From: Homoserinimonas aerilata
GTDB taxonomy: Bacteria > Actinomycetota > Actinomycetes > Actinomycetales > Microbacteriaceae
Length of the DNA stretch: 64,000 bases
Assembly (NCBI RefSeq): GCF_006716125.1
Contig: NZ_VFOM01000002.1
Span: forward strand, 186,001 to 250,000
Direction of reading: 5' to 3'
Shown: piece after piece, positions 15,067 through 57,351 of the stretch
Position numbering within the stretch: position 1 is the first letter of the stretch
Layout of the letters: every line of letters begins with the position of its first letter
Program-made: the position numbers and the translations under genes
Notes under the pieces: model-generated
What the model was told of the DNA's origin: nothing
The model's database searches: none
Seen by the model: only the letters and a program-made list of their open reading frames with translations

Positions 15067-15123
15067 CGAGAGTACCCAAAGTGCACGATCTGGGCCGAAA
15101 AGCGAGCACTTTGCGTACTCTCG
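15067..15123. repeat. 57-bp intergenic palindrome, family A copy 1
   Basis: Begins CGAGAGTAC and ends GTACTCTCG, with an inner arm CAAAGTGC/GCACTTTG. The total length is 57 bp, like the other family A copies. It lies between the tandem minus-strand APC permease and acs genes. This copy is the most divergent in its inner arms. Confidence 0.75.
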
Positions 15124-15156
15124 ATGGCTTCTCTCGGCGCGAGGAGGCCCGCTCGG

Positions 15157-16599
15157 CTACGAGAGGTCGACATGCCTGCGCACGCGGGCGACGATCGGCC
15201 CGAGCGCGAACGCGACCGCGAACAGTGCCAGGATGCCCCACGAGAACGGGCCGTAGCCCTCCTCCGCCACGAGCACCGGCAGGTTCTGCAGGATGATCAC
15301 GAAGAACGCGAGCAGCCCGAGCAGCCCGAGGCCCGGCGCCACGAGCGTCTTCCAGCGGCTGAGCTCGTGGTGCTCGCGTCGCAGCAGCACGATCACGGCG
15401 GTGCTCGTGATGACGAGGAGCAGCACAATGCCGACCGCCGAGATGCCGCCCAGCCAGGTGTAGAACTGGTTGATCGGGTCGAGCCCGAGCAGCACGGCGG
15501 CAATGACCAGCACGGCGACGACGGCCGAGGTGACAAGCGAGGCGAGCGCGGGCGAGCCGTGCTTCTGGTGCGGGCGCGAGAGCCGCTCGGCAAAGACGCC
15601 CTTCTTGGAGAGGGCGAAGACGTAGCGTGCCCCGATGTTATGGAACGACAGGATGCACGCGAACAGGCTTGTCACGAACAGCAACTGGATGATGTGCCCG
15701 CCGACGGAGCCGAGATACGCCTCCGTCGTGGTCGCCAGGATGCTGCCGGCGTTCTCGCCCGCGTTCGCGACGATGTCGCTCTCACCGTTGGCGGTGATGA
15801 GCACCCAGCTGGACAGCGTGTAGAAGACGCCGATGAGGATGAGCGAGATGTAGGTGGCGCGGGGGATCGTGCGCTCCGGGTTCTTCGCCTCGTCGCGGAA
15901 CACGGCGGTCGCCTCGAAGCCGATGAAGCTGAGGATGGCGAAAAGGATCGCGAAACCGGGCGCGCCCGACACGATCTCGGCCGGCGTGACGATGCCCGTC
16001 GAGAAGCCCTCAGGGCCTCCGCCCCCGAAGACGACCACGGCGTCGAGTACCAGCACGATGGCGACCTCGGCGATGAGGAGTACGCCGAGGATCTTGCCCG
16101 AGAGGTTGATGTTGAGGTAGCCGAGCGCAGACACGACGACGAACCCGACGATCGCGTAGACCCACCACGGCACAGCGGGCAGGCCGTAGCTCTGCAGGAG
16201 AGCGTCGAAGCCCGGGCCAAAGATGCCGAAGACACCGGCCTCGAGTGCCAGATATGACAGCAGCGCGGCGAACGCGGCACCGAGGCCTGCGCTACGGCCG
16301 AGACCCTTGTCGACATAGGCGAAGAAGGCGCCTGCCGACTTCACGAACGGGGTGGCCGTCGTGAACCCGACCGCGAACAGCAGCAGGACGGCGGTGACGA
16401 CGACGAAGGTGAACGGAAAACCGGCGCCGTTGCCGTTGGCGATGCCGAGCGGCACCGGCCCGCCGATGACGCCGAGCGGCGAAGCAGCCGCGACGACGAT
16501 GAAGACGATGCTGGCGACGCCGAGCGAACCGCGGAGGGTGCGCGACGGCACCGCGGCCGGTTCGGCGGCCTCGGGGACGACTGTTGTTGTCGATGACAT
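15157..16599 (-). CDS. APC-superfamily amino acid permease
   Basis: 480 residues with about twelve predicted membrane segments. The N-terminal signature GVASIVFIVVAAASPLGVIG and the sixth-helix region FIGFEATAVFRDEAKNPERT are typical of the amino acid/polyamine/organocation superfamily. It is encoded 90 bases downstream of two flavin-dependent monooxygenase-like genes on the same strand. It could therefore import a substrate for them, such as a sulfur-containing amine or amino acid. That link is contextual only. Confidence 0.85.
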   Translation of the reverse strand: MSSTTTVVPEAAEPAAVPSRTLRGSLGVASIVFIVVAAASPLGVIGGPVPLGIANGNGAGFPFTFVVVTAVLLLFAVGFTTATPFVKSAGAFFAYVDKGLGRSAGLGAAFAALLSYLALEAGVFGIFGPGFDALLQSYGLPAVPWWVYAIVGFVVVSALGYLNINLSGKILGVLLIAEVAIVLVLDAVVVFGGGGPEGFSTGIVTPAEIVSGAPGFAILFAILSFIGFEATAVFRDEAKNPERTIPRATYISLILIGVFYTLSSWVLITANGESDIVANAGENAGSILATTTEAYLGSVGGHIIQLLFVTSLFACILSFHNIGARYVFALSKKGVFAERLSRPHQKHGSPALASLVTSAVVAVLVIAAVLLGLDPINQFYTWLGGISAVGIVLLLVITSTAVIVLLRREHHELSRWKTLVAPGLGLLGLLAFFVIILQNLPVLVAEEGYGPFSWGILALFAVAFALGPIVARVRRHVDLS

Positions 16600-16689
16600 G
16601 GTGGGTGGTCCGTTCGGAACGAAGAGAAGAAGGGCAGGTGGAGAAAAAGTAGCGGCGCCCCGGCTGCTGCGGCGCTTCGTGACCTTTTA

Positions 16690-17895
16690 TTACCGGGCGG
16701 ACTTCTGAGCATCCGGTGCCGGCGGCACGCCGATCGCCCACTCATACGGCGGCTCCGCGTCGTTGACGAGGTGGTCGCCGATGATGCGCGCCTTGAATGC
16801 GACAGGGTTGTGCGAGCCGACCGTGCGGGCGTTGCGCCAGTGCCGGTCGAGGGCGAGGCCAGTCGAGGTGGCGGATGCGCCGAGCGCGTCGAAAAGGCTG
16901 GTCGCGGCCCTCAGCGACAGCTCGGCGACGATTGCCTGCGCTCGTGCGGACGCGATCTCCGCCTCGCGCCTGCTCGCCGCCCGCTCCTCCGGGGTGCGGG
17001 CCTCATAGGCGAGCTGCAGTTCCTCTGCGGCCCGCAGCACGACGGCCTCCGCAGCAAAGGCGTCTGCCGAGATTCGGCCCACGATCTCGAGCACCTGCGG
17101 GTCGTGGCGCGTCTGGGCGGCGTTACCGTGGCTGAACGAGCGCGCCCGCGTGGCCACCTGGTGCACGGCATCCGACTCCGCCGCCCGGGCGATGCCGGCC
17201 TGCACGGCGACGAGCACGAGCTGGTACAGCGATGTCTGGTACGAGAAGCGCTCCGCGAAGGGGTGCACATGCTCGGCCCGCACGGGGGCCGCGTCGAAGA
17301 CGGTCGTGCCGCTGCCGGTGAGCCGCTGCCCGAAGCCCGTCCAGTCGTCGCTCACGGTCACCGCATCCGTCGCCGTGCTCACAAGCGCTGCGACCTCTGT
17401 GCCGTCAGGGGCGAGGGCGGATGCGTCGATCCATTCTGCGAAGATACTGCCGGTCGAGTAGTACTTGCGCCCCGTGATGGTGAAGTCGTCGCCGGCGGCT
17501 GTCAACCGCGTGGTCGTGTCGCCGAGCGCGACGGAGCCGATCTCGGTGACGGCATTGCCGACGAGCTCACCCGAGGCGAAGCGGCGCAGCCACTCCTCGC
17601 GTTCGGAGGAGGCCGGCGCGCAGAGGCGATCTTCGACGAAGGCGAGATGCCCGCGCAGGGCCTGCGGCACATGCGGGTCGGCTGCGGCGAGCTCGACGAG
17701 CAGGCGGAACAGCTCCGGCAGGCTCGCCCCGTCGCCGCCGAACTCCCGCGGCACGCGAACCCCCGTGAAGCCGGACTGCTTGAGCCAGCCGATCTGCTCG
17801 AACGGAAGCACGCGGTCGAGCTCACGCTGCAGTGAACCCTCGGCGATACGCGCGAAGACCGGCCGGTACTTGGCCGCGAGCGCTGCGTAGCCCAT
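16690..17895 (-). CDS. Acyl-CoA dehydrogenase-fold flavoenzyme, SfnB/DszC-like (A)
   Basis: 401 residues with the acyl-CoA dehydrogenase fold: an N-terminal helical domain, a middle beta domain (GNAVTEIGSVALGDTTTRL, then FTITGRKYYSTGS), and a C-terminal helical domain ending in LDRHWRNARTVGSHNPVAFK. The last motif (RHWRNxRTxxxHNP) is characteristic of the DszC/SfnB branch. Members use reduced flavin and oxygen on sulfur compounds rather than dehydrogenating acyl-CoA. The ATG overlaps the stop of the upstream paralogue by one base, so the two are translationally coupled. The substrate is unknown. Confidence 0.82.
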   Translation of the reverse strand: MGYAALAAKYRPVFARIAEGSLQRELDRVLPFEQIGWLKQSGFTGVRVPREFGGDGASLPELFRLLVELAAADPHVPQALRGHLAFVEDRLCAPASSEREEWLRRFASGELVGNAVTEIGSVALGDTTTRLTAAGDDFTITGRKYYSTGSIFAEWIDASALAPDGTEVAALVSTATDAVTVSDDWTGFGQRLTGSGTTVFDAAPVRAEHVHPFAERFSYQTSLYQLVLVAVQAGIARAAESDAVHQVATRARSFSHGNAAQTRHDPQVLEIVGRISADAFAAEAVVLRAAEELQLAYEARTPEERAASRREAEIASARAQAIVAELSLRAATSLFDALGASATSTGLALDRHWRNARTVGSHNPVAFKARIIGDHLVNDAEPPYEWAIGVPPAPDAQKSAR

Positions 17896-19127
17896 CAGGT
17901 GTACAGCGACACGGGCTGAATCGTGCCGTTCAGGTAGTGGGCGCCGACCTCGATCTTCTTGTAGTCGACAGGGTCGTGCAGGCTGTGCGTACGGATGTCG
18001 CGCCAGTGCCGGTCGAGCCCGACCGCCGCCCTCGTCGAACTCGCACCGGTCGCCTCGAACACGCGACTCGAGACATCGAGGCCGACCTCTGTGGCAATGA
18101 CCTTGAGCTGGGCGACCGCGATCTCGAGGGCGGCGCGATCATCGGATGTCGTGGCCGCCCCGAGCGCGACTGCCTCGTCGTAGCGTCGGTTCAGTCGGTC
18201 GGCGAGAGCCTCCACGGCGACCGTGCGGGCCACAAGCTCGCCGAAGAGGCGATGTGTGACCGGGTCGTCGGAGTAGCGGTCGACGCCGCTGAGGAACCAG
18301 CTCCCCGGGCGTGCCCGGGTGAGCTCGCGCGCCTGGGCGAGCGCGCCCTCAGCGATGCCGAGGTAGATGTTGCCGAACAGCAGCTGCACGCCGGGGGTGA
18401 CGACCGAGGAGAAGGGCTCATCCTCGTCGACGCCGATGATGTCGTCGGGGCTGACCGCGACATCCGTGTACCGCACCGAGCCGCTCGCGCTGGCGCGGTA
18501 GCCCACGTTGTCCCAGTCGCCCGGGTGTTCGATGCCGGGTCGGTCGCCCTCGATCGCAAAGACCACGAGTCGGCCGTCGAGCGCACCGCCCTCAGCGACG
18601 GCGCCCGCGATGATGACATCGGCGACGGATGCCCCGGTCGCGAAGCGCTTGACGCCGCTCAGCCTGTAGCCGTCGCCGTCGGCGGTGAAAGCCAGGTCGG
18701 GGCTGACCGGGTTGAACGAGTCGCTCCAGACCCAGGAGCCCTCGGCGCTGCGGCGCAGCCACTCCGCCTGGCGGGCGGGGTCGGTGCCGTAGAACACGAC
18801 GCAGGCCTGGTTGAGGTAGTGGTAGCCGAGGATCTGGGCGATGGATGCGTCGGCGCGGGCCAGCACGCGCGCCACACCGAACGCGGTCTCCCAGTGGCCG
18901 CCGTGCCCGCCCGCCTGTGCGGGCACGAGCAGGTTCGCGAGTCCGCTCTCGCGTAGCAGCGCCAGCTGTTCGACGGGCGGGGTGTTCGCCCTGTCGCGGG
19001 CCACCGCATCCTTGGCCAGCTCGTCGGCGACGGACTGCGCCACCGCCAGCCAGCGCTCGGACTCGGCGGCGGAGGCGACGCCCGACCAGGGGCTTCGCGT
19101 GCGCGGTGGTGTCGTGGTGATGGTCAT
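17895..19127 (-). CDS. Acyl-CoA dehydrogenase-fold flavoenzyme, SfnB/DszC-like (B)
   Basis: 410-residue paralogue of the downstream enzyme. It has VWSDSFNPVSPDLAFTADGD and YRLSGVKRFATGASVADVI in the middle domain and the family end motif LDRHWRDIRTHSLHDPVDYK. It is the first gene of a minus-strand operon (this gene, paralogue A, APC permease) and faces the LLM monooxygenase gene across a 147-bp divergent region. Two acyl-CoA dehydrogenase-fold monooxygenases plus one DszA-class enzyme is the composition seen in sulfone/sulfide desulfurisation gene sets. I therefore infer a role in organosulfur scavenging. Confidence 0.82.
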   Translation of the reverse strand: MTITTTPPRTRSPWSGVASAAESERWLAVAQSVADELAKDAVARDRANTPPVEQLALLRESGLANLLVPAQAGGHGGHWETAFGVARVLARADASIAQILGYHYLNQACVVFYGTDPARQAEWLRRSAEGSWVWSDSFNPVSPDLAFTADGDGYRLSGVKRFATGASVADVIIAGAVAEGGALDGRLVVFAIEGDRPGIEHPGDWDNVGYRASASGSVRYTDVAVSPDDIIGVDEDEPFSSVVTPGVQLLFGNIYLGIAEGALAQARELTRARPGSWFLSGVDRYSDDPVTHRLFGELVARTVAVEALADRLNRRYDEAVALGAATTSDDRAALEIAVAQLKVIATEVGLDVSSRVFEATGASSTRAAVGLDRHWRDIRTHSLHDPVDYKKIEVGAHYLNGTIQPVSLYT

Positions 19128-20723: not shown

Positions 20724-20957
20724 CGGGTGGGTGCGGGTGCGAGTGCGGGTGTGCGCTTGCCGCGAGTGGTCGCGGGGGTGCGTGGGTGTGCGCTTGCCGC
20801 GAGTGGTCGCGGGTGTGCGCGGGTGTGCGCTTTCCGCGAGTGGTCGCGGGGGTGTGCGGGTGTGCGCTTGCCGCGAGTGGTCGCGGGGGTGTGCGGGTGT
20901 GCGCTTGCCGCGAGTGGTCGCGGGGGTGTGCGGGTGTGCGCTTGCCGCGAGTGGTCG
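20724..20957. repeat. 37-bp tandem repeat (minisatellite)
   Basis: The core CGCGAGTGGTCG recurs at 20761, 20798, 20835, 20872, 20909 and 20946, an exact 37-bp period. A diverged leading half-unit lies at about 20724-20760. The array is flanked by TGACCACTCGCGGG on the left (20714-20727) and by AGTGGTCGAAAG ... AGAAAGTGACC on the right. Those flanks are the arms of the family B palindrome also seen at 62579-62722. Together with the 16-bp array below, it fills the gene-free stretch 20649-21107. All frames are open through it, so the long ORFs here are artefacts of the period. Confidence 0.92.
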
Positions 20958-24894: not shown

Positions 24895-24954
24895 CGAGGC
24901 GTTTTCGGTGGAATGAGCCTGGAACGGGCGGCTCATTTCGCCGAAAACGCCTCG
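24895..24954. repeat. 60-bp near-perfect intergenic palindrome
   Basis: 24-nt arms beginning CGAGGCGTTTTCGG and ending CCGAAAACGCCTCG with two internal mismatches and a 12-base centre. It follows the response regulator stop by 25 bases and precedes a plus-strand gene. It could act as a terminator hairpin, but there is no T-run. Confidence 0.8.
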
Positions 24955-29142: not shown

Positions 29143-30573
<1,431 letters not shown>

Positions 30574-30655: not shown

Positions 30656-30712
30656 CGAGACTGCACGAATCGCCCGCTTTCGGGCCCGAAGCGGACGATT
30701 CGTGCAGTCTCG
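30656..30712. repeat. 57-bp intergenic palindrome, family A copy 2
   Basis: Outer arms CGAGACTGCACGAATCG and CGATTCGTGCAGTCTCG are perfectly complementary. The inner part reads CCCGCTTTCGGGCCCGAAGCGGA. It sits between argG and the lyase gene, both on the minus strand. Confidence 0.9.
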
Positions 30713-30736: not shown

Positions 30737-31618
30737 TCAGGAGCCGTAGTTGTCGTCGAGCCCCTGATGGTGCTCGAGTCCCACGACGCCCATGAAGTCG
30801 TCGTAGCTGAACTGGGCGGCCGCGTTCGAGAAGCCGTCAGCGCGCAGGGTGGCGAGAGCGGATGCTGCGGCCGCGGTGGCCGCGAACAGCGCGTCGAGCG
30901 GGTGCAGCACGATCGAGAAGCCGAGTTCGCGCGCCTCGTCAAGGGTGAGGTTGGCGGCTTCTGTACCCGTGATGAGGGCGATCACCTTCGGCCCCTCGAG
31001 TCGGCGGCCGATCTCCTCTGCCTGGGCGAGGGTCTTGACACCATCGACGAAGAGCAGGTCTGCACCGGCGTCACGGTAGCGTTTGGCGCGGTCGAGGGCC
31101 ACGTCGAGCCCTTCGACGCCGAGGGCGTCGGTGCGCCCGATGATGAGCATGTCGCGGTCGGCGCGGGCGGAGACGGCTGCCCGGATGTGCCGCTCGGCGC
31201 GCTCCTCCTCCATGAGCTGCACGCCGGCCATCTGGCCGCACCTCTTCGGGCTGGTCTGGTCTTCGAGGTGCAGCGCCGCGACATCCGCCTGGATGTATTC
31301 GTGCACCGTGCGTTCGATGTTCGATGGCCCGCCGTATCCGTTGTCGGCGTCGGCGATGACGGGGATGTCGACCGCGCGGGTCATGGCGCGTGCGGCGTCT
31401 GCCATTTCGCTCTGGGTGAGTATTCCGAGGTCGGGCACGCCCAGGCGGGCTGCGGTGACGCCGAAGCCGGTCATGTACACGGCGGCGAACCCCGCCTGTT
31501 CGACGAGGCGGGCGGTGAGCGGGTCGGCAGCTCCTGGCGCCTGCACGGGGGTGCCGGAGTCGATCAGGCGTCGCAGTCTCTGGGCGTTGCCGAGGGGGAC
31601 GGGTGCAGCTGTGGTCAT
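30737..31618 (-). CDS. Isocitrate lyase/PEP mutase-family C-C lyase
   Basis: 293-residue (beta/alpha)8 enzyme of the PrpB/dimethylmalate lyase/oxaloacetate decarboxylase superfamily. Key elements are AVYMTGFGVTAARLG, metal-binding Asp in VIADADNGYG, LHLEDQTSPKRCGQMAG (the signature-loop Cys is kept, but the residue after Gly is Gln, not the His of KRCGH), and IGRTDALGVEG. It is the second gene of an operon with the SDR dehydrogenase upstream, and lies in a cluster with a TRAP transporter and GntR regulator. Likely role: cleaving a 2-hydroxy- or 2-oxo-dicarboxylate produced by the SDR enzyme. Ordinary methylisocitrate lyase is less likely because no prpC/prpD is present. Confidence 0.82.
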   Translation of the reverse strand: MTTAAPVPLGNAQRLRRLIDSGTPVQAPGAADPLTARLVEQAGFAAVYMTGFGVTAARLGVPDLGILTQSEMADAARAMTRAVDIPVIADADNGYGGPSNIERTVHEYIQADVAALHLEDQTSPKRCGQMAGVQLMEEERAERHIRAAVSARADRDMLIIGRTDALGVEGLDVALDRAKRYRDAGADLLFVDGVKTLAQAEEIGRRLEGPKVIALITGTEAANLTLDEARELGFSIVLHPLDALFAATAAAASALATLRADGFSNAAAQFSYDDFMGVVGLEHHQGLDDNYGS

Positions 31619-32472: not shown

Positions 32473-32518
32473 TGCTCGACCGCCTTGTGAAGTGATTGGA
32501 TACTGAAAGAGTACCCGT

Positions 32519-32577
32519 CTTGTATACAAGATTAGCGCTCAAAGATGTACACAACCGCGAGAAATCGTGTATACAAG
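32519..32577. promoter_or_regulatory. Paired GntR operators in the SDR/gntR divergent promoter
   Basis: CTTGTATACAAG (32519-32530) is a perfect 12-bp palindrome. CGTGTATACAAG (32566-32577) is a second near-identical copy, and GATGTACACAAC (about 32543-32554) looks like a weaker third site between them. FadR-type GntR proteins bind short TTGTNNACAA-like palindromes, so these are very probably sites for the adjacent GntR protein controlling both directions. Confidence 0.78.
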
Positions 32578-32618
32578 ACGGATACCCGTCAATGGAGCGT
32601 GTCAAAGGAGATCGCCGA

Positions 32619-34590: not shown

Positions 34591-34595
34591 TAACA

Positions 34596-35129
34596 GTGTT
34601 TGTCGTTTCCCTCTGGGAGAGAGGACTCCGACCGGCGGCGAAATGGTTCGCCGTCGCGTCGGCAGTCCTCTGCGGCGCACTGGCGCTGCTGCTCACCGCC
34701 GAGGTCGTGATGCGCGGAACCAGTGGCACCTCCATCCGCGGGCTGTTCGAGATCGCCGAGCTCGGGCTCGTCATGACGGTGTTCCTGGGTCTTGCCCAGT
34801 CCGAGGTCAACGGAACGCATGTGCGTGTCACGCTTCTCACCGACAGGCTCTCGCCGGCCGCCGCGAACCGGATGCGCGGAATCGCCCTCATCCTGGCGAC
34901 GGTGTTCCTGGCCTGGATGGGCTTCGAACTCGTCGAACGTGCCCTCCAGTCGTTCACGGTCGGTGAATACCGCACCGGCCTCCTCAACTTCCCCGTCTGG
35001 CCGTCACGAGCCTTTGTGGCGGTCGGAACAGTGTTCCTCGCCCTCGTCCTCTTCGTGAAGGGGCTCGTGCACCTGACGGGCCGCACGCCATCCGGGGCCA
35101 CCGACCACACAGAGGGAGGAGCCGTCTGA
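34596..35129 (+). CDS. dctQ: TRAP transporter small permease (DctQ)
   Basis: 177 residues with four membrane segments, the typical DctQ size and topology. Conserved elements include VVMRGTSGTSIRGLFEIAEL and AQSEVNGTHVRVTLLTDRLS. It starts at GTG 34596, five bases after the dctP stop, and its TGA overlaps the dctM ATG (TGATG), giving tight translational coupling. Confidence 0.88.
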   Translation: MFVVSLWERGLRPAAKWFAVASAVLCGALALLLTAEVVMRGTSGTSIRGLFEIAELGLVMTVFLGLAQSEVNGTHVRVTLLTDRLSPAAANRMRGIALILATVFLAWMGFELVERALQSFTVGEYRTGLLNFPVWPSRAFVAVGTVFLALVLFVKGLVHLTGRTPSGATDHTEGGAV

Positions 35130-36544
35130 TGTCTGCAGAACTCATCGTCATCGTCGTTCTTGCACTGTTCTTCCTGATGCTCGCCATCGAGATGCCCGTC
35201 GCGTTCGCGCTCGGATTCTCGGGGGCCATCGGCACCGTCATGCTGCACTCCTTCAAAGTGGCTGACAGCGTGCTCGCCAACGTGCCATTCGAATCGACCG
35301 CGAAATTCTCGCTCGTCGTCATCCCGCTCTACATAATGCTCGGGGCGATGGCCACGCAGGCACGAATACCCGAACGGGTCTACACGGTGATCAACCGTGT
35401 CGCAGGACGCTTCAAGGGTGGCCTCGCGATCGCAACGATCGGCGCGAGCGGCGGCTTCGCGGCTGTCTCCGGCTCCAGCGTGGCGACCGCGGCAACCCTC
35501 GGCAAGATCTCGGTGCGGCAGATGATCCGTCACGGGTACTCTGCCGAACTGGCCACCGGAATCGTCGCAATCGGCGCGACCCTCGGCATCCTGATCCCGC
35601 CCAGCATCATCATGATCATGTACTCGATCATGAGCGGGGAATCGATCGCAGCCCTCTTCAGTGCGGGAATCGTGCCGGGCATCCTCTCGGCCGTCGCCTA
35701 CATCATCACAGCCCTCATCCTGGTGAAGCGCGATGGCCGCCGAATCAGCGAGAACGCCGAAGTGCTGCAGCGCGTCGGCGCCGCCGGCGCGGGCGGCTCG
35801 GTCGACGTCACCGATGTGACCGCGCCGACGGTGTCGATCGACACGAACGCGGGGGTCCGGTCGAGTTCACTCTTCGCGGAACTGCGAAGCGTCTTCTGGT
35901 TGGTGCTCATCATCGCCGTCGTGATCGTGAGCATCTTCACGGGACTCACGACGCTGTCGGAGTCGGCAGCGCTCGCGGCGGTGATTGCCACGATCGCCCT
36001 CATCGCGGAGCACTTCAAATCGGGGGTGCGGGCCATCATCGGCCGCATCCGTGACGGCCTCGCGGAGTCGGCATCCGTCACGAGCATGGCGTTCGCCGTG
36101 GTGGTGGGCGCGGGTATCTTCGCCTACTTCCTGGTCTCGGCGCGCGTGCCCAACAACCTGTCGCGCTTCTTCGCCGGGCTGGATGTGCCGCCGATCCTGA
36201 TCGTCGTGCTCATCCTGCTCATGATGATCCCCCTCGGGATGTTCCTCGACTCGCTGGCGGTGGTCGTCATCGTCGTGCCGATCGTCTACCCGACCATCAT
36301 CGGCCTGGGCTTCGACGGGATCTGGTTCGCCATCCTGCTGGTGAAGCTCATCGAGATCGGGTTGTTGACGCCGCCGGTGGGCATGAACTGCTTCGTGATC
36401 GCCGGTGTGACGGGAATCAAGCTCGAGACGGTGTTCAAGGGCGTCGCACCCTTCCTGGCGTGCGAGGCGGTGCTGGTGACCCTGTTGATCGTGTTCCCTG
36501 ACATCGTGCTCTGGCTGCCGAACCTCATGGCGTCGATGCGGTGA
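35129..36544 (+). CDS. dctM: TRAP transporter large permease (DctM)
   Basis: 471 residues with about twelve to thirteen membrane segments. Family motifs present are GGFAAVSGSSVATAATLGKI, IGATLGILIPPSIIMIMYS, MIPLGMFLDSLAVVVIVVPI and LIEIGLLTPPVGMNCFV. This is the Na+- or H+-coupled transport subunit completing the TRAP system. The central cytoplasmic loop (about residues 205-255) is somewhat longer than usual. A family A palindrome follows six bases after the stop. Confidence 0.93.
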   Translation: MSAELIVIVVLALFFLMLAIEMPVAFALGFSGAIGTVMLHSFKVADSVLANVPFESTAKFSLVVIPLYIMLGAMATQARIPERVYTVINRVAGRFKGGLAIATIGASGGFAAVSGSSVATAATLGKISVRQMIRHGYSAELATGIVAIGATLGILIPPSIIMIMYSIMSGESIAALFSAGIVPGILSAVAYIITALILVKRDGRRISENAEVLQRVGAAGAGGSVDVTDVTAPTVSIDTNAGVRSSSLFAELRSVFWLVLIIAVVIVSIFTGLTTLSESAALAAVIATIALIAEHFKSGVRAIIGRIRDGLAESASVTSMAFAVVVGAGIFAYFLVSARVPNNLSRFFAGLDVPPILIVVLILLMMIPLGMFLDSLAVVVIVVPIVYPTIIGLGFDGIWFAILLVKLIEIGLLTPPVGMNCFVIAGVTGIKLETVFKGVAPFLACEAVLVTLLIVFPDIVLWLPNLMASMR

Positions 36545-36550: not shown

Positions 36551-36607
36551 CGAGACTGCACGAATCGTCCGCTTTCAGCCCCGAAACGGACGATTCGTGC
36601 AGTCTCA
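36551..36607. repeat. 57-bp intergenic palindrome, family A copy 3
   Basis: Arms CGAGACTGCACGAATCGTCC and GGACGATTCGTGCAGTCTCA: perfect except the outermost base. It follows the TRAP operon and precedes a same-strand gene, so it may serve as terminator here. Confidence 0.9.
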
Positions 36608-36638: not shown

Positions 36639-37277
36639 ATGCAGCACGAGCCGAACGCCACCCATGAACTCTCCACTGCGGGGGTCGGCCCCTGGCGCGG
36701 TGAGTGGCCGGAGGGCGGGCACTACGACGAGGAGCTGCTGAAGCGCGGCGACACCCGCAACGTCATCGACCGCTACCGCTATTGGCGCATGGATGCCATC
36801 GTTGCGGACCTCGATGAGCACAGGCATCCGTTTCATGTCGCCATCGAGAACTGGCAGCACGACATGAACATCGGCTCGATCGTGCGCAGCGCGAACGCGT
36901 TCGCCGCCGATACCGTGCATATCGTCGGCCGTCGGCGCTGGAATAAGCGCGGCGCCATGGTCACCGACCGCTACCAGCATGTGATGCACCACGACACGGT
37001 TGCCGCGCTCGTCGAGTGGGCGGATGCCGAGGGGCTGCCGATCATTGGGATCGACAATGTGCCGGGCAGCGTCATCATCGAGACCTTCGACCTGCCGGAG
37101 CGCTGCGTGCTGCTGTTTGGGCAGGAGGGCCCTGGCTTGTCGCCTGAGGCGATCGAGGCATCGGATGCTGTGGTTGAGATCACGCAGTTCGGTTCGACTC
37201 GGTCGATCAACGCCTCGGCAGCGGCTGCCGTTGCCATGCATGCCTGGGTCATGCAGCATGTGGAGTTCCCCGGCTGA
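36639..37277 (+). CDS. TrmH/SpoU-family RNA 2'-O-methyltransferase
   Basis: 212-residue SPOUT-class enzyme. The three family motifs are present: NIGSIVRSANAFAADTVHIV (motif 1), LLFGQEGPGLSPEAI (motif 2) and ITQFGSTRSINASAAAAVAM (motif 3, knot loop binding SAM). It is likely a tRNA or rRNA ribose methylase; the target nucleotide is not defined. It is short and lacks the N-terminal L30-like substrate-binding domain of 23S rRNA SpoU enzymes, so a TrmH-like tRNA role is somewhat more likely. Confidence 0.87.
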   Translation: MQHEPNATHELSTAGVGPWRGEWPEGGHYDEELLKRGDTRNVIDRYRYWRMDAIVADLDEHRHPFHVAIENWQHDMNIGSIVRSANAFAADTVHIVGRRRWNKRGAMVTDRYQHVMHHDTVAALVEWADAEGLPIIGIDNVPGSVIIETFDLPERCVLLFGQEGPGLSPEAIEASDAVVEITQFGSTRSINASAAAAVAMHAWVMQHVEFPG

Positions 37278-47519: not shown

Positions 47520-47585
47520 CGTTGTGCGGCTTTTATGTCGTTGTGCGCGCCCGTGCACGCACAACGACATAAAAGCCGCACAACG
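47520..47585. repeat. 66-bp palindrome with perfect 28-nt arms
   Basis: The left arm runs CGTTGTGCGGCTTTTATGTC to GTTGTGCG (47520-47547). A 10-base centre CGCCCGTGCA is followed by an exactly complementary right arm (47558-47585). It lies downstream of purA. The TTTTAT/ATAAAA block in the arms is markedly AT-rich for this genome. It could terminate purA transcription, but the perfect symmetry exceeds what termination needs. Confidence 0.9.
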
Positions 47586-49673: not shown

Positions 49674-51992
49674 CTAGCCGCCGACGACCGCCCCGAAGTG
49701 CTCCGGCAGTGTGGCGGTGTGCGCGCCGCGCAGTTCGTCGACCGACACCGTGAACTGGTCCTGGATCTCCAGCTGCCCGTTGTTGTCGGTGACGCCGATG
49801 CGCAGCACAGGGTAGCCGCGGCCTTCGCACAGGCCGACGAAGCGCACATCGTCTTCGCGCGGGACGCTGACGATGACCCGGCCGGTCGACTCACTGAACA
49901 TGGCCGCCGTCTCGTCGACGCCGTCGCGCTGGGTGATTCCGGTCAGCCACACGCGGGCGCCGACGCCAAAGCGCAGCACCGATTCGGCCAGCGCCTGGAA
50001 GAGCCCGCCGTCGGCGAGGTCGTGCGCGGAGGAGAGCAGGCTGCCCTGGCCGCCGGAGTGCAGCAGCCCGGCGAGCATCTTCTCGTCGTCGAGTGACACG
50101 GTGGGCGGCAGCCCGCCCAGGTGGTCGTGGATGACTCCGGCCCAGGCGCTGCCGTCGAGCTCGTCGCGGGTGGTGCCGAGCAGGTAGATGTTGTTGCCCT
50201 CGTCCTGCCAACCGCTGGGGATGCGGCGGGCGACGTCGTCGATGGTGCCGAGCACGGCGATGACGGGGGTCGGGTGGATGGGCACGTCGCCGGTCTGGTT
50301 GTAGAACGACACGTTGCCGCCGGTGACCGGGATCTCCAGCTCGAGGCAGGCATCCGAGAGTCCTTCGACGGTCTCACTGAACTGCCACATGACCTCAGGG
50401 TTCTCGGGGGAGCCGAAGTTGAGGCAGTCGCTGACGGCGACGGGGGTCGCGCCGGTGGCGGCGACGTTGCGGTACGCCTCCGCGAGCGCGAGGCGGGCGC
50501 CCTGCCGCGGGTCGAGCTGGCAGTAGCGGCCATTCGCATCCGTCGCCACGGCGAAGCCGAGCCCACTGTTCTCGTCGATGCGCACCATGCCGCCGTCATC
50601 CGGGAACGACAGGGCGGTGTTGCCGCCGACGTAGCGGTCGTACTGGTTGGTGACCCACTCCTTGGAGGCAAGGTTGGGGCTGCCGAGCAGGCGCAGGGCC
50701 TGGTCGCGCAGTTCGTCGGGGCCGGATGCGCGGGGCAGCCGGGCGGACGTGTCAGCCTGCAGCGCGTCGATCCAGCTGGGGTAGGCGACGGGTCGGTCGT
50801 ACACGGGCCCGTCGACGGCGACCGTGTTGGGGTCGACGTTGACGATCTCGTCGCCGTGGTGGGTGATCACGAGGCGGTCGCCTTCGGTGACCTCGCCGAG
50901 CACGCTCGTCTCGACGTCCCACTTGTTCACGACGGCCATGAAAGCGTCGAGCTTCTCGGGGCGCACGATGGCCATCATGCGCTCCTGGCTTTCGCTCATC
51001 AGGATCTCTTCGGCCGTGAGCGTGGGGTCGCGCAGCAGCACGTTCTCGAGCTGGATGCGCATGCCGCCGTCGCCGTTGGCCGCGAGCTCAGAGGTCGCAC
51101 ACGAGATGCCGGCCGCGCCGAGATCCTGGATTCCCTCAACGAGTTCGTTCTTGAAGAGCTCGAGGCAGCACTCGATGAGCACCTTCTCGGCGAAGGGGTC
51201 GCCGACCTGCACGGCGGGCCGCTTGGTGGGGCCACCCTCGTCGAAGGAGTCGGAGGCGAGGATGGATGCTCCGCCGATTCCGTCGCCGCCGGTGCGCGCC
51301 CCAAAGAGCACGACCTTGTTGCCGACGCCGCGGGCGTTGGCCAGGTGCAGGTCCTCGTGGCGGAGCACGCCGACCGCGAGCGCATTCACGAGCGGGTTGG
51401 CCTGGTACACGGAGTCGAAGTAGGTTTCGCCGCCGATGTTGGGCAGGCCGAGGCAGTTGCCGTAGAAGCTGATGCCGCTGACGACGCCGTGCACGACGCG
51501 GGCCGTATCGGGGTCATCGATCTTGCCGAAGCGGAGGGCATCCATGACGGCGACGGGGCGCGCACCCATGGAGATGATGTCGCGCACGATTCCGCCGACA
51601 CCGGTCGCGGCACCCTGGAACGGCTCGATGTAACTGGGGTGGTTGTGCGACTCGATCTTGAAGGTGACCGCCCAGCCTTCGCCGACGTCGATGACGCCCG
51701 CGTTCTCGCCCATGCCCACCATGAGGTTCTTCTTCATGGCCGGGCTGACCTTCTCGCCGAACTGGCGCAGGTACTTCTTGCTCGACTTGTAGGAGCAGTG
51801 CTCGCTCCACATGACCGAGTACATGGCCAGCTCGCCGCTCGTGGGGCGGCGGCCCAAGATCTCGCGGATGCTCGCGTACTCGTCCGGCTTCAGCCCGAGC
51901 GCCGCATACGGCTGCTCCTTCTCGGGCGTTGCGACGGCGTTCGAGACGGTGTCGGCGACATGGTGGCGGGGGGTGGCTGAGACGTCGGTCAC
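49674..51992 (-). CDS. purL: Phosphoribosylformylglycinamidine synthase subunit II
   Basis: ATP-dependent FGAM synthase catalytic subunit of the PurS/PurQ/PurL type, 772 residues. Motifs include [76 protein letters not shown] and [20 protein letters not shown]. The small-type PurL lacks the fused glutaminase; that subunit (purQ) and purS lie 7.5 kb away at 59501-60474 on the same strand. The gene starts GTG 51992 or a nearby codon and is alone here. Confidence 0.95.
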
Positions 51993-52127
51993 GAGGGGGC
52001 TTCTCCCAGAGGATTACGGATGCCGCAGGCACGTTCGCCGGCTCGGCCAGTCTACCGCTGCAGCTCACCGCATCCGCCCGCCGCGCATCCGCCCGCCGCG
52101 CATCCGCCCGCCTGCCTCCCCACCCCC

Positions 52128-52198
52128 ACTTCGCCGAGACTGCACGAATCGCACGCTTTCGCGCCCAAAGCGTGCGATTCGTGCAGTCTCGGCGAAGT
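52128..52198. repeat. 71-bp extended palindrome, family A copy 4
   Basis: The core 57 bp (52135-52191) has arms CGAGACTGCACGAATCGCAC and GTGCGATTCGTGCAGTCTCG. Complementarity continues outward through ACTTCGCC/GGCGAAGT, giving 71 bp. It is the most symmetrical family A copy and lies between divergent genes. Confidence 0.92.
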
Positions 52199-52228: not shown

Positions 52229-52285
52229 CGAGAGTACGCGAATCGCACGCTTTTCCGGCTCAAACGGTCGATTTGCGTAGTCTCG
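52229..52285. repeat. 57-bp palindrome, family A copy 5 (hybrid ends)
   Basis: The left end is CGAGAGTACGCGAATCGCAC, the AGTACGC type. The right end CGATTTGCGTAGTCTCG is mixed (ACTACGC when read inward). It shows that the two end types recombine or drift within one element. Confidence 0.85.
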
Positions 52286-52331: not shown

Positions 52332-53543
52332 GTGACCGATGCCCCCGCCGACCCCTCAGCCGATCCGGTGCTCGAGCCCACAGCCGAGCCCGCAGTCGAC
52401 TCCGCAGCCGTGCCTTCAGCAGGCTCCGCAGCCGTGCCTTCAGCAGGCTCCGCAGCCGTGCCCCCAGCCGAGCCCGCAGTCGATGCTTCAGCCGTGACCG
52501 ATGCCGATGCCGACTCGTCAGCCGACTCCACAGCCGTGCCGTCAGCCGAGCCCGCAGCCGACGCTGCAGCCGAGCCTGCAGCCGTGCCGTCAGCCGACTC
52601 CGCAGCCGATGCTTCAGCCGCCGCCGACACCGCGGCAGGGCCTGCTGCCGAAGCGGCCCGCGCACGCCTCATCTCGGCCATCGCGCCGTTCACCCTCGGT
52701 GCTCTTGCCGCAGCAGGGGGCATCCTGCCGGCCCTTCTCGATGGCGGGCGCCTGCCGCTGCAGAACCTGTGGACGACGCAGACTCTTCCCGAGGACATGC
52801 CGTTCGCACTGCTTCCGGTGAGTCAGTACCAGGCGATCACGCTGCTGGCGCTGCTCGTGATGGGAGGTGTGGTGGCCGGGCTTGCTGTTCGTGTCATCCG
52901 GCGGCGGCGTCCTATAGCGGCCCGTCCGGTGGCCGCCGGGCTGCTGGTGGTGCACACGATCGCGATTGTGCAGAGTTTTGTGGTTGTCGCTGATGGTGTC
53001 GGCGCCTTCGCGGAGGGCGCCGACGATCGCGGTTTCTTCTACTTCACGGGGATGCTGACGGGCGTTGAGGCGTGTGCGCTGCTCGCCCTGCTCGCATTCC
53101 GGTTGACCTCGCGGCGTTCTGTTGGCCCTGTTGCGCTCGGTGTCGGCCTCGCGGCGGTGCCGTTCGCCTCCTGGATCGGCACGGGAATCGTCGCAGTGAC
53201 CGGTCTGGCCGGGTACCCGCCGCTCGCGGCAGATGTGCTGCGGTGGCTGCCGGCGCTCATCGTGGGGCTTGCGCTCGCCTGGTGCGGGGTCAAGCCTGTG
53301 GCCCGACTCGGCGTCTGGGCGGGTCTCCTCCTCGCGCTGTGGCTGATTCCCGCGCTGTTCACCGCGACCGCTTATGCCTTGGGTATGCGCGTGCTGGATG
53401 GGGATCTCGCTGAGATGGCGGATGCTGGTGCCCAGGTCTTCGGCATGGCTCTCTGGGTCGACCTGGGCCCTGTCGTGGTGGCTGCGGCGATCGGAGCGGT
53501 CGGCGTCGGGGCGCGGATGCTGTGGACGCGTAGCCGCCGCTGA
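52332..53543 (+). CDS. Multi-pass membrane protein with repetitive acidic Ala/Pro/Ser N-terminus
   Basis: 403 residues. Residues 1-110 are low-complexity, built from repeats such as SADSAA, PAEPA and AVPSAGSA (the DNA shows the matching CAGCCG-type periodicity). About eight membrane segments follow (residues 115-400). The N-terminal segment is probably an acidic cytoplasmic or surface tail. No family was recognised. It starts GTG 52332, 47 bases after the second palindrome. Function is unknown. Confidence 0.6.
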   Translation: MTDAPADPSADPVLEPTAEPAVDSAAVPSAGSAAVPSAGSAAVPPAEPAVDASAVTDADADSSADSTAVPSAEPAADAAAEPAAVPSADSAADASAAADTAAGPAAEAARARLISAIAPFTLGALAAAGGILPALLDGGRLPLQNLWTTQTLPEDMPFALLPVSQYQAITLLALLVMGGVVAGLAVRVIRRRRPIAARPVAAGLLVVHTIAIVQSFVVVADGVGAFAEGADDRGFFYFTGMLTGVEACALLALLAFRLTSRRSVGPVALGVGLAAVPFASWIGTGIVAVTGLAGYPPLAADVLRWLPALIVGLALAWCGVKPVARLGVWAGLLLALWLIPALFTATAYALGMRVLDGDLAEMADAGAQVFGMALWVDLGPVVVAAAIGAVGVGARMLWTRSRR

Positions 53544-53608: not shown

Positions 53609-53946
53609 AAAATGAGTTGAGTGATGTCGACATCGATCGCATGTTCCAGGCCCTCGCCGCATCAACGCGGCGGGACATCCTGCGACGCACGATCGCCGAG
53701 GAGCAGTCGGTCTCGGAGTTGGCCCGCGAATACGACATGTCGTTCGCGGCCGTGCAGAAGCACGTCGCCGTGCTCGAAGCGGCTCAGCTCATCGTCAAGC
53801 GTGCGGAGGGGCGGGAACGTCTCGTGCGCGCAAATCCTGAGATGATCGCCCGCGCGCGGGCCCTTCTCGCCCGCTACGAAGACCTCTGGCGAACACGCGT
53901 CGATCGCCTCGACGTGCTGCTGGCCGCCCAACCTGAAGGAGAATGA
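53599..53946 (+). CDS. ArsR-family regulator (SdpR-like)
   Basis: 115 residues with a winged helix: MFQALAASTRRDILRRTIAE, SVSELAREYDMSFAAVQKHV, AVLEAAQLIVKRAEGRERLV. It lacks the metal-binding Cys motif (ELCVCDL) of ArsR/SmtB sensors, so it is probably not a metal sensor. The gene ends one base before the SRPBCC gene starts and is preceded by its own operator. It is the usual regulator of START/AHSA1-type proteins. Confidence 0.88.
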   Translation: MVAQNELSDVDIDRMFQALAASTRRDILRRTIAEEQSVSELAREYDMSFAAVQKHVAVLEAAQLIVKRAEGRERLVRANPEMIARARALLARYEDLWRTRVDRLDVLLAAQPEGE

Positions 53947-53947
53947 C

Positions 53948-54925
53948 ATGCCTGTCACCGATGTCACCACCGATGCCGAGAAGCTCACCATGACGCTCGT
54001 CGCCGATTTCGCCGCCCCCGTCGAGCGGGTGTGGGCCGCCTTCACCGACCCGCGGCAGCTTGAGCGTTTCTGGGGCCCGCCCGGATGGCCGGCCACGTTC
54101 ACCGAATTCGACCACACTGTCGGTGGTCGCGCGAGGTACCACATGACCAGCCCGCAGGGCGAGCGCTCATCCGGGGCGTGGGAGTTCCTCATGATCGATG
54201 AGCCCCGCCGTTTCGAGGTGATCGACGGTTTCGTCGACAGCGACGGCGCGGCCGCCGATGGCATGCCGTCGATGCGCATGACGTACGAGTTCGAGGTCAC
54301 CGAATCGGGCACGCGGATGATCAACGTCACCTATTTCGATTCGGTCGAAGCGCTCGAACAGCTCACAGCGATGGGCATGGTCGAGGGCTCGACCATGGCG
54401 ATGAACCAGCTCGACATCGTGCTGGAGGGGCTGCGCGCCTACGCGCAGGGCAAGGGCACACGCACCGAGTTGCTCGATGACACCCATGTGCGCATCACAC
54501 GCCTTATCGAGGGCCCGCGCGAGTTCGTCTGGCGCGCCCACAACGAGCCCGAGCTGATGCGCCAGTGGCTGCTCGGCCCGGACGGCTGGGTGATGACGGA
54601 CTGTGTGATCGCGGCCGCCGCAGGCGACAGCTACCGCACCGCCTGGGCGCCGGTCGACGGCACCGAGGGTGAGGCGTTCGGCTTCGAGGGCGAAGCGCTC
54701 CTCGTGGAGGCCCCGCGCCGCATGGTCACGACGGAGCGCATGACCGGCGTCGACGGCCCGGGCACGGTGAACGATCTGAGCCTCGACGAGGAGGATGGGG
54801 CAACCCTTCTCACCCTGCTCATCGAGTACCCCAGCAGGGAACTGCGCGACATGATCCTCGCCACGGGCATGACCGACGGCATGGAGGCCTCGTACGCGCG
54901 CATGGAGAAAGAGCTTGTTCGCTGA
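53948..54925 (+). CDS. Tandem SRPBCC (AHSA1-like) domain protein
   Basis: 325 residues containing two SRPBCC/AHSA1 domains. The first (about 12-155) has FAAPVERVWAAFTDPRQLER, FWGPPGWPATF and YFDSVEALEQLTAMGMVEG. The second (about 165-325) has RLIEGPREFVWRAHNEPELM, RQWLLGPDGW and DMILATGMTDGMEASYARME. The proteins bind hydrophobic ligands or act on them. Single-domain versions usually pair with ArsR regulators; here two domains are fused in one chain. Coupled to the ArsR gene with a 1-base gap. Confidence 0.87.
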   Translation: MPVTDVTTDAEKLTMTLVADFAAPVERVWAAFTDPRQLERFWGPPGWPATFTEFDHTVGGRARYHMTSPQGERSSGAWEFLMIDEPRRFEVIDGFVDSDGAAADGMPSMRMTYEFEVTESGTRMINVTYFDSVEALEQLTAMGMVEGSTMAMNQLDIVLEGLRAYAQGKGTRTELLDDTHVRITRLIEGPREFVWRAHNEPELMRQWLLGPDGWVMTDCVIAAAAGDSYRTAWAPVDGTEGEAFGFEGEALLVEAPRRMVTTERMTGVDGPGTVNDLSLDEEDGATLLTLLIEYPSRELRDMILATGMTDGMEASYARMEKELVR

Positions 54926-55061
54926 CCGCGGGGCGTAGCTGACGCCTTCCGTTCATCGCGGCTTAACCGGGGCATCCGCTCGTGTTGCCCTGCGCTGTCT
55001 AGCGTGACGTTACGACAACGCCGTGAGTATCCGGCGTATGGCGAACAACGGAGGGCGCACC

Positions 55062-55796
55062 ATGACCATCGAACGCGACATCGCACAGGAGCTCGACGAA
55101 GACCTCGACGTGGAGATCGAACTCGTCGTGCTCGACCTTGCCGGCACCACGGTGCGCGACGACGGCCTCGTCGAGCGGGCTTTCGCGCTCGCCGCTGAGC
55201 GCACCGGAATTGTCGACGGCGACGAGCAGCTTGCGGGCGCTCTCGGCTATGTGCGCGAGACGATGGGGCAGTCGAAGATCGACGTGTTCCGGGCGCTTGC
55301 CGCAGACGATGCTGCCGCGGAGCGTGCCAACGAAGCCTTCGAGACCGCCTACCTGGAGCTCGCCGTCCAGGGCGGCATCGAGGCGATCCCCGGCGCGGAA
55401 GAGCTGCTGCGCCAGCTGCGTGACTTCGATGTGAAGATCGCCCTCGTCACCGGTTTCTCGCGGGCCACCATGGACGCCATCCTCGAGGTGCTCGGCTGGG
55501 CGGCGCTCGTCGACGTGACGCTTGTGCCCGCCGAGGCTGGCCGCGGTCGGCCGTTCCCGGATCTGCCCCTCACCGCGCTGATGCGCGTCGGCGCTTCGGG
55601 CACCGCCGGCATGGTCATCGTCGGTGACACCGCCAGCGACATGCTCTCGGGGGTGAACGCGGGCGCAGGCCTCATCGTCGGTGTTCTGACGGGCGCCCAC
55701 GACCGCGAGACCCTTGAGGCGGCCGGTGCGGATGTCGTGCTCGACAGCATCGCGGAACTCGCGCCGCTGCTCGGCATCGACGACGTCATCGAGTAG
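55062..55796 (+). CDS. Phosphonatase-like HAD hydrolase (PhnX-like)
   Basis: 244 residues. The nucleophile motif is VVLDLAGTTVRDDG, the DxAGT form that distinguishes phosphonatases from ordinary HAD enzymes. A lysine in ETMGQSKIDVFRAL aligns with the PhnX cap-domain Schiff-base Lys (MGLLKID). The motif III position has Arg (AGRGRPFPD) as in PhnX, and motif IV is VIVGDTASDM. These features indicate C-P cleavage of phosphonoacetaldehyde or a hydroxylated relative. The ATG at 55062 follows GGAGGG. It is coupled to the Zn alcohol dehydrogenase gene 5 bases downstream. No PhnW transaminase is present. Confidence 0.82.
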   Translation: MTIERDIAQELDEDLDVEIELVVLDLAGTTVRDDGLVERAFALAAERTGIVDGDEQLAGALGYVRETMGQSKIDVFRALAADDAAAERANEAFETAYLELAVQGGIEAIPGAEELLRQLRDFDVKIALVTGFSRATMDAILEVLGWAALVDVTLVPAEAGRGRPFPDLPLTALMRVGASGTAGMVIVGDTASDMLSGVNAGAGLIVGVLTGAHDRETLEAAGADVVLDSIAELAPLLGIDDVIE

Positions 55797-55801
55797 TCGG
55801 C

Positions 55802-56974
55802 ATGCCGAACGCCACCCACCCCACGCGGGATGTGCTGCTGAGCCCGTCGCCGACGGCCGTCGTCTGGTCGGGAGCCGGCCACCCCCTCGTGCAGATCGCC
55901 ACCCCGGGCGTTTCGCTCGGAGCTGGCGACCTGCTCGTCGAGGTCGAGTTGGCGACCGTCTGCGGCTCCGATCTGCACACCGTGCTCGGCCACCGCAGCG
56001 CCGACACTCCGCTCGTGCTCGGTCACGAGCAGGTGGGACGGGTGGTCGCCCTCGGCGAGCACGCGCGGGCATCCAATGGCACCCCGCTCATGGTCGGCAT
56101 GCGCGTCATCTGGTCAGTCGCGGTCGCGTGCGGCGACTGCGATCGCTGCGTGCGCGGCCTCAGCCAGAAGTGCCGCACCCTCGCCAAGTACGGGCACGAC
56201 AGGGTTCGTCGCGGTTGGGAGCTGAGCGGCGGCTTCGCCACGCACGTTCAGGTGCTCGCCGGAACCGCTGTCATCATCGTCGACGACGAGCTGCCCGCCG
56301 CCGTCATCGCCCCAGCCAGCTGCGCGACCGCCACTGTCGTTGCCGCGCTCGATGCGGCATCCGGGGTCGTTCCCCTCGCCGGCGAGACGGTCGTCATCGC
56401 CGGGGCCGGCCTGCTGGGCCTCACCGCCTGCGCCATGGCGACGGATGCGGGCGCCACGGTTATCGTCTCCGATCCGGATGCGATGCGTCGCGAGGTCGCG
56501 CTGCGCTTCGGTGCGGCCGCCGCGGTCGAGCCTGTGGCACTTCAGCCGACACTGGCCCGGATGCTCGAACAGGGCAGCAGGGAACCGCTTGTCGCCATCG
56601 AGATGTCGGGTGCGCCTTCCGCCGTCGCCGCCCTCGTGTCTACGGTCGGCGTCGGCGGTGTTGTCGTGTTGGTGGGCAGCGTCTCACCCGGCGAGCTGGT
56701 TCCCATCGACCCGGAGTCGATCGTGCGTCGGCTCGTCACCCTGCGCGGCGTGCACAACTACGGCGGCGGCCAGCTGGAGCGCGCCGCCGAGTACCTCGAA
56801 GGCGCCGCCGGGCGGTACCCCTTCGCGTCGCTCGTGGGCGAAACTTTCGGGCTCGGGGAGGTCGAGCAGGCGCTTGAGCTCGCCGCGCGGGGCACGCACC
56901 TGCGGGTCGCCATCGACCCGCGCAGCCAGACGCGCACGCCAGCGCTGCAGGCCGTCGCGCACGCGAGCCCCTGA
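55802..56974 (+). CDS. Zinc-dependent alcohol dehydrogenase, HpnZ-like
   Basis: 390 residues of the medium-chain dehydrogenase family. Catalytic zinc ligands are in TVCGSDLHTVLGHR and LGHEQVGRVV, structural zinc cysteines in VACGDCDRCVRGLSQKC, and the NAD motif is IAGAGLLGLTACAMA. The partnership with a phosphonatase-like hydrolase is the known context of the proposed phosphonate-catabolism alcohol dehydrogenases. It may reduce or oxidise the aldehyde released by C-P cleavage. The substrate is not proven. Confidence 0.83.
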   Translation: MPNATHPTRDVLLSPSPTAVVWSGAGHPLVQIATPGVSLGAGDLLVEVELATVCGSDLHTVLGHRSADTPLVLGHEQVGRVVALGEHARASNGTPLMVGMRVIWSVAVACGDCDRCVRGLSQKCRTLAKYGHDRVRRGWELSGGFATHVQVLAGTAVIIVDDELPAAVIAPASCATATVVAALDAASGVVPLAGETVVIAGAGLLGLTACAMATDAGATVIVSDPDAMRREVALRFGAAAAVEPVALQPTLARMLEQGSREPLVAIEMSGAPSAVAALVSTVGVGGVVVLVGSVSPGELVPIDPESIVRRLVTLRGVHNYGGGQLERAAEYLEGAAGRYPFASLVGETFGLGEVEQALELAARGTHLRVAIDPRSQTRTPALQAVAHASP

Positions 56975-57211
56975 GTGCCCGGCCGAGCTGCTGGCGGCGC
57001 CCCTCCTGACTGGCCCACCCCTCCTGTGTGGCCCGCCCGCCTGGCCTGGCCCGCCTGCCTGACTGGCCCACCCCTCCCTGTGTGGCCCGCCCGCCTGCCT
57101 GGCGCCCGCCCGCATCCGCCCCGCCCGCATCCGCCCCGCCCGCATCCGCCCCGTCCGGCCCGGCCCTCTGTGCCCGGCCCGCCCGCATCCGCTCCCGCCC
57201 GCACCCCTCGC

Positions 57212-57268
57212 CGAGACTGCACGTATTGCACGCTTTTCGCCTCGAACCGTACGTTTCGTGCACTCTCG
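57212..57268. repeat. 57-bp palindrome, family A copy 6
   Basis: The left end CGAGACTGCACGTATTGCAC pairs with GTACGTTTCGTGCACTCTCG with several mismatches. Centre GCTTTTCGCCTCGAACC. Confidence 0.85.
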
Positions 57269-57294
57269 ACGACGGTCGCCGCGCGCGCGTCCGC

Positions 57295-57351
57295 CGAGAG
57301 TACGCAGATCGCACGCTTTTGGCCCGAAAACGTACGTTTTGTGCAGTCTCG
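57295..57351. repeat. 57-bp palindrome, family A copy 7 (hybrid ends)
   Basis: The left end is CGAGAGTACGCAGATCGCAC (AGTACGC type) and the right end is GTACGTTTTGTGCAGTCTCG (ACTGCAC type). It lies 83 bases after copy 6, mirroring the doublet at 52135/52229. Confidence 0.88.

Follow-up and report, generated by a model that had tools for sequence, protein, structure and literature searches.

The window analyzed here, 64,000 nucleotides of Homoserinimonas aerilata DNA (contig NZ_VFOM01000002.1, positions 186,001 to 250,000), carries seven palindromes of 57 bp, and we consider it likely that a dedicated nuclease, whose gene lies elsewhere in the genome, recognizes these sites and probably cuts them. 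The well-supported partner is a DUF559-type protein that joins an AbiEi-like part to a Vsr/EDxHD-like catalytic domain. The palindromes are a repeat family of fixed length, their arms vary independently of one another in this genome, and they are linked to the nuclease gene. Distinct gene-palindrome pairs coexist within one genome, two families predicted from the flanks of nuclease genes proved to be dispersed, and the candidate catalytic residues are conserved in a domain whose fold is confidently predicted. Binding, cutting, repair-driven spread and the swapping of halves by the nuclease are what we infer from the sequences.

All seven copies reported in the initial annotation were recovered at their positions, each exactly 57 bp long. 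Halves are designated A or B after the two end types named there, and the copies, to which no strand is assigned, are the following.

15067..15123, no strand: palindrome of B/B type, its left end altered at one base, in a tandem gap
30656..30712, no strand: palindrome of A/A type, in a tandem gap
36551..36607, no strand: palindrome of A/A type with final base A, in a tandem gap
52135..52191, no strand: palindrome of A/A type, first of a pair in a divergent gap
52229..52285, no strand: palindrome with a B half and a C-A-G half, second of that pair, in the same divergent gap
57212..57268, no strand: palindrome with an A half and a G-G-A half, first of a pair in a tandem gap
57295..57351, no strand: A/B hybrid palindrome, second of that pair, in the same tandem gap

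The two named ends hold as types, but in four of the seven copies one end departs from them by a single base (CGAGAGTACCC at 15067, TGAGACTGCAC at 36551, CGAGACTACGC at 52229 and CGAGAGTGCAC at 57212).

The family extends over the whole genome, and its length does not vary. The pattern CGAGASTRCRC-N{20,50}-GYGYASTCTCG, which permits total lengths of 42-72 bp, found 34 sites, every one of them 57 bp, while the reversed pattern that served as control found none. A scan fixed at 57 bp gave 43 copies at ≤1 mismatch (control 0) and 45 at ≤3 mismatches, the two extra sites being one decayed copy and one chance-like match. None of the 43 copies lies inside a gene predicted by the codon-usage gene finder that we built for this analysis, which bears out the intergenic placement first described. 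The copies are frequently arranged in pairs or bigger clusters. The tandem and divergent contexts noted for the window are correct there but incomplete for the genome, where copy-bearing gaps are tandem in 11 cases, convergent in 8 and divergent in 3, with one more divergent gap at a cut locus. The ends are mosaic, as had been proposed: 25 of the 43 copies are A/B, 7 A/A and 2 B/B, and 9 carry other letters; tandem copies inflate the surplus of A/B hybrids, on which we place no evidential weight. The sequence just outside the palindrome also shows a preference, for a CG-N / N-CG flank in which N, read outward on the element's own strand, is A at 0 of 86 ends in this genome and at 1 of 216 elsewhere.

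In a search for the exact ends at 57 bp with one genome per species, 96 DNA stretches matched. The 80 titles listed among them all name genera of Actinobacteria, including Cellulomonas, Cryobacterium, Microbacterium and Mycobacterium. The ends agree across genera, and the inner arms differ genus by genus. At least one copy at ≤1 mismatch was present in 13 of 299 genomes of the family sample, the H. aerilata genome counted. By the same gene finder, 98 of the 109 copies in other genomes lie between genes and 11 inside predicted ones; the 80 classified gaps there are tandem in 42 cases, convergent in 36 and divergent in 2, against a background, for gaps of at least 70 bp, of 167, 68 and 79. A near-perfect palindrome of this pattern also occurs at L054:7439-7495, with flanks complementary for 12 bp further, on a contig titled Collinsella ihumii, a genus distant from the other matches.

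The nuclease emerged when the genes beside the elements were clustered: one protein group adjoins elements in six genera, and five of these six proteins have a Pfam relationship to DUF559 or MTES_1575, in some cases with scores under the curated threshold. The gene of H. aerilata lies outside the window.

G000:C1, about 293.6-294.6 kb (L114:18631-19563), minus strand: the H. aerilata nuclease gene

It is flanked by five copies of the palindrome on one side and three on the other. The product has 310 residues, of which about 5-199 form the AbiEi-like part and about 202-308 the catalytic domain. This C-terminal domain is confidently predicted to adopt the Vsr/EDxHD homing-endonuclease fold and is restriction-endonuclease-like, with the proviso that a list of matching folds leaves room for families not on it. 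The candidate active-site residues E207, D240, H257 and D266 are invariant in 48 of 48 members; their assignment to the EDxHD motif is our own and was made without superposition of residues. At some loci the nuclease gene is split over two frames or carries a stop.

The linkage of gene and palindrome was examined in samples of different origin. Among element-bearing loci, 9 of 11 nuclease genes have an element at most about 250 bp away and 5 have one on either side, counts that alone do not make a fair sample, since these loci had been selected for the element. A sample chosen by protein was obtained by searching the H. aerilata protein against 120 genomes of the family, 79 of which hold relatives, and by fetching 30 loci. 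A strong palindrome was present within about 350 bp of the gene at 23 of the 30, and on both sides at 16. All 16 both-sided loci share an identical stretch of 10-57 bp between the sides, whereas between different genes the shared stretch averaged 6.0 and never exceeded 11 (240 comparisons). A stricter test on 41 genes demanded a [CT]GA[GAC] tag at both ends and allowed 44-72 bp. It found palindromes at 24 genes, on both sides of 15, and all 41 palindromes near the genes are 56, 57 or 58 bp long (11, 25 and 5, respectively); away from the genes the same test returned four palindromes in 110 kb (44, 54, 56 and 56 bp).

Each nuclease appears with a palindrome of its own. Ten of 11 further paralogues in three genomes have a nearby palindrome and six have a matched pair, each with its own sequence, and the H. 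aerilata genome holds three nuclease genes with three different palindromes. The pair flanking its paralogue at G000:C1:2083160 is resembled by a lone 57-bp palindrome at L123:1646-1702, starting TGAGTTGCC, and the site of that nuclease seems to be dispersed too. The palindrome next to a nuclease gene of genome G028 (CGAGCACAG) was used to predict a dispersed family, which proved to have 61 copies in G028, 24 in its congener G103 (where at least two of those with two mismatches look like chance) and none in three other genomes. With length left free, 44 of the 45 G028 members measure 57 bp and the other 58 bp, and all seven in G103 are 57 bp. Likewise, the palindrome next to a gene of genome G068 (CGACTTGCCG, searched at 57 bp only) has six copies, four of them away from the gene; elsewhere it gave one two-mismatch match in G028 and none in three other genomes.

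In the mechanism that we propose, each of the two arms, about 23-24 bp long, would hold one protein, and the catalytic domains of the pair would come together above the poorly conserved centre of about 9 bp. The length would be fixed because two bound proteins at a set distance measure the site, with each nuclease family keeping 56, 57 or 58 bp. Breaks at the centre would be repaired from other copies, and this repair would homogenize and spread the sites, produce the mosaic ends by exchange of halves between copies, and maintain the enzyme's own sites on either side of its gene. A nuclease-site relationship of this kind would account for the dyad symmetry, the variable centre, the mosaic halves, the flanking of the gene and the existence of one palindrome family per enzyme.

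The main rival is that the protein is an operator-binding regulator, in which the AbiEi-like part controls its own gene, the dispersed palindromes belong to a regulon, whether host or selfish, or serve to organize the chromosome, and the nuclease domain acts elsewhere. AbiEi and Rv2827c bind 23-bp inverted repeats that occur in pairs, and each represses its own promoter (PMC7319586), and the palindrome is frequently found just upstream of the nuclease gene. We nonetheless judge this explanation unlikely: an operator sits uneasily with palindromes on both sides of the gene at 16 of 30 loci, with the location of most copies in tandem or convergent gaps (just 2 of the 80 classified gaps in other genomes are divergent), and with the invariance of the candidate catalytic residues. 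The spacing of the repeats, about 9 bp here, differs from the 3-4 bp of AbiEi antitoxins, the antitoxins of the AbiE type IV toxin-antitoxin system, which differ further from the present protein with its fused nuclease domain and genome-dispersed repeats.

Half-site positions are conserved in the H. aerilata genome and the centre is variable. The arms are mostly complementary, but here they match no better within a copy (0.712) than between copies (0.716, n=43), and the same is true of the Cellulomonas-type copies (0.832 within, 0.831 between, n=44). Cryobacterium-type arms are intermediate (0.830 against 0.776, n=19, with 35 of 2000 shuffles as high). Arms that match equally well within and between copies, as in the first two groups, are the pattern of a symmetric protein-binding site and not of a selected hairpin. 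On the sense strand of tandem gaps, G-U and A-C mismatches occur at similar frequency (38 G-U and 27 A-C in the H. aerilata genome, 35 G-U and 37 A-C in the others). It is thus very unlikely, on these grounds and on that of the fixed length, that the palindromes are RNA hairpins, namely bidirectional terminators or transcript-end structures that are uniform by chance, even though the arms are largely complementary and gaps downstream of a gene are favored. Some copies lie in divergent gaps, and nuclease genes have palindromes at both ends, so the copies are not confined to transcript 3' ends. With copies also spread over the whole genome at one length, none of the three outcomes that the initial annotation had set against itself was seen. 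The flanks of the window palindromes, judged by eye from the printed sequence and not computed, hold no T-run. The initial annotation's preference for something other than terminators thus stands, although terminator action is possible as a side effect, because gaps downstream of genes are favored.

Comparison of related genomes points clearly to gain or loss. An ispE-like (GHMP kinase) gene and an ABC-type gene enclose the nuclease gene, itself on the opposite strand, in the H. aerilata genome and in genomes G195 and G241, and palindromes of a species-specific flavor flank it. In G143 the ispE-like and ABC-type genes are 73 bp apart and the nuclease gene is absent, with flanks that align too poorly to place a junction in the 73-bp gap; in G080 the gene after ispE is another one. 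At one divergent site, where the H. aerilata genome carries two copies, its unaligned interval is 439-471 bp; the interval is 58, 72, 86 and 266 bp in four congeners without copies at that place. For the window sites 36551 and 52135/52229, synteny in congeners is not clean. The alignment of G028 with G103 ends at two of the three G028 copies in one 20-kb stretch (L185:6660-6716 and 18778-18834), where rearrangement at the palindromes may have occurred.

Several results weigh against the nuclease-site interpretation. No clean base-level insertion site or target duplication was seen at the nuclease locus, in the G028/G103 comparison or at the window sites compared with congeners. The AbiEi-like part matches AbiEi structurally with a root-mean-square deviation of 6.7 over 175 residues, Foldseek alone returned no match below E 0.001, and the commonest PADLOC AbiEi model is matched by 16 of 48 members only. 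In the looser linkage test 7 of 30 nuclease genes, and in the strict test 17 of 41, have no nearby palindrome; both counts include the H. aerilata gene, whose locus scored as a miss in spite of its eight copies, the hybrid copies falling below the symmetry threshold. The similarity of nucleases does not follow that of their palindromes over 22 families (r -0.025), 8 of which were picked by palindrome or by nearness to the H. aerilata locus; the remaining 14, not picked by palindrome, give a weak r of 0.187, with 232 of 5000 shuffles as high. The preference of copies for gaps downstream of genes is one that terminators or repetitive extragenic palindromic (REP) elements would also show. Finally, the arms in G028 with G103 match better within copies (0.787) than between them (0.478, n=22), which counts against a protein site because a hairpin would give the same; one G028 subtype behaves similarly (0.740 and 0.580, n=13). 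This matching could stem from mixed subfamilies, recent origin or arm-to-arm conversion, and a hairpin constraint may act in G028.

The arm matching in G028 is also what REP elements would show if moved as single-stranded hairpins by a REP-associated tyrosine transposase (RAYT), an HUH enzyme of the Y1 type. REPs are described as short, dispersed, intergenic and clustered palindromes of 20-40 bp with a tetranucleotide foot, tagged GTAG or CGTC, flanking a partner gene (PMC3733652), and but for length and tag the present palindromes share these traits. Their 56-58 bp and CGAG-like tag differ, however, as does the fold of the partner enzyme. The RAYT-like transposase gene that the initial annotation suggested looking for did not appear, as Y1_Tnp (PF01797) was found in none of six genomes, H. 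aerilata included, while the control was positive in 5 of 14 genomes. We regard movement by RAYT as highly improbable. The palindromes resemble those of REPtrons (PMC3733652) in that they are dispersed and clustered between genes, end in a tetranucleotide foot and lie on both sides of the gene for a dedicated enzyme; here the enzyme is an AbiEi-Vsr/EDxHD nuclease and, in the H. aerilata genome, the arms act as independent half-sites.

A defense or addiction module, with a solitary restriction-like nuclease and palindromes as decoys or self-marks, has equally slender prospects: the PADLOC matches (16 of 48) and the restriction-endonuclease-like catalytic domain agree with it, but the coexistence in one genome of several enzyme-palindrome pairs, whose dispersed or flanking sites are particular to each, fits selfish spread better. 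Least probable of all is a miniature inverted-repeat transposable element, derived from a DDE insertion sequence that shares these ends and unable to move by itself, which the short, repeated form and inverted ends would suggest. Against it, the H. aerilata genome holds no larger element so bounded, and at ≤2 mismatches every half-site there belongs to a full palindrome, other than one end of the decayed copy; no target-site duplication is apparent by eye in the printed flanks, and the inner sequence drifts at constant length. The interpretation given in the initial annotation is partly supported, in that both a bound structural site and a small repeat of REP-like kind come near to what we find.

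The likeness of the partner nuclease to EDxHD homing endonucleases such as I-Bth0305I comprises the predicted Vsr-like catalytic fold and the conserved candidate E, D, H and D residues, and by analogy the 57-bp site would fit the long (about 60 bp) dimer target of these enzymes. The gene of I-Bth0305I reportedly lies in a phage group I intron. The gene described here, in contrast, is free-standing between complete copies of its presumed site, encodes an additional AbiEi-like part and is accompanied by many dispersed sites without a gene. Compared to Vsr mismatch endonucleases and DUF559 proteins, it is the AbiEi-like part and the cognate palindromes that are extra.

We give even chances to the broader proposal that this is a new class of self-spreading system in Actinobacteria, in which an AbiEi-EDxHD nuclease propagates the site that it targets as well as its gene; a palindrome of 56-58 bp would be cut at the centre, and repair would copy the sites, swap their halves and re-bracket the gene. 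The case for novelty draws on the features by which it was tested and found to differ from established systems, and on a limited open-access literature check, in which no paper found describes such palindromes, and we claim nothing wider. If true, the system would resemble REPs while depending on an unrelated enzyme, and would therefore be convergent, and the several enzyme-site pairs per genome, each with its own specificity, would form a natural collection of long-target nucleases. Many such pairs are readable straight from genomes, and long-site nucleases are useful tools. A functional setting would also be provided for the common, uncharacterized DUF559/MTES_1575-type proteins and for the repeats of the window, where an Rfam scan brought no family to its gathering score. 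How a repeat holds its exact length while the inner sequence drifts becomes testable, in that two bound proteins would measure it.

The genes that flank the window palindromes, and the short tandem arrays (15-bp units, a GT run and GC-rich units) that directly adjoin several copies, are as follows.

12987-14993 (minus), acetyl-CoA synthetase-like, and 15157-16551 (minus), amino acid permease-like: flanks of the palindrome at 15067
29143-30570 (minus), argininosuccinate synthase-like, and 30737-31618 (minus), PEP mutase/isocitrate lyase-like: flanks of the palindrome at 30656
35129-36544 (plus), DctM-like, and 36639-37277 (plus), SpoU methylase-like: flanks of the palindrome at 36551
49674-51992 (minus), AIR-synthase-related/FGAR-AT-like, and 52332-53543 (plus), no Pfam match: flanks of the pair at 52135/52229
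55802-56974 (plus), alcohol dehydrogenase-like, and 57444-57767 (plus), DUF4190: flanks of the pair at 57212/57295
52069-52112 and 57105-57203 in the window, and L114 about 7575-7640 and 17930-18100: short tandem arrays beside palindromes

Helical phasing of neighboring copies at 10.5 bp was considered and dropped (20 start-to-start distances, 15 of them distinct, p ~0.29); the best of six periods on the distinct distances was 11.0, with an uncorrected p of ~0.045. A second type of tagged palindrome, 60 bp long and starting CGAGGCGTTTTCGG or CGAGCCGTTTTCGG, occurs twice in the sampled parts of the H. aerilata genome, at 24895-24954 of the window and at L120:7738-7797, and is possibly the site of another nuclease. 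Three palindromes of 58 bp that start CGAGTTGCC and are rich in CTTTCGCCCC, at L119:12411, L121:907 and L122:15688, are another fixed-length repeat family of the H. aerilata genome. The window also holds a tandem array of a 37-bp unit in 5.8 copies (20743-20957), an inverted repeat at 47520-47585 with 31-nucleotide arms, 97% complementary, and a 4-nucleotide spacer, which is not of the tagged type, and an operator-like inverted repeat at 32511-32585, whose 23-nucleotide arms enclose a 29-nucleotide spacer with TTGTATACAAG.

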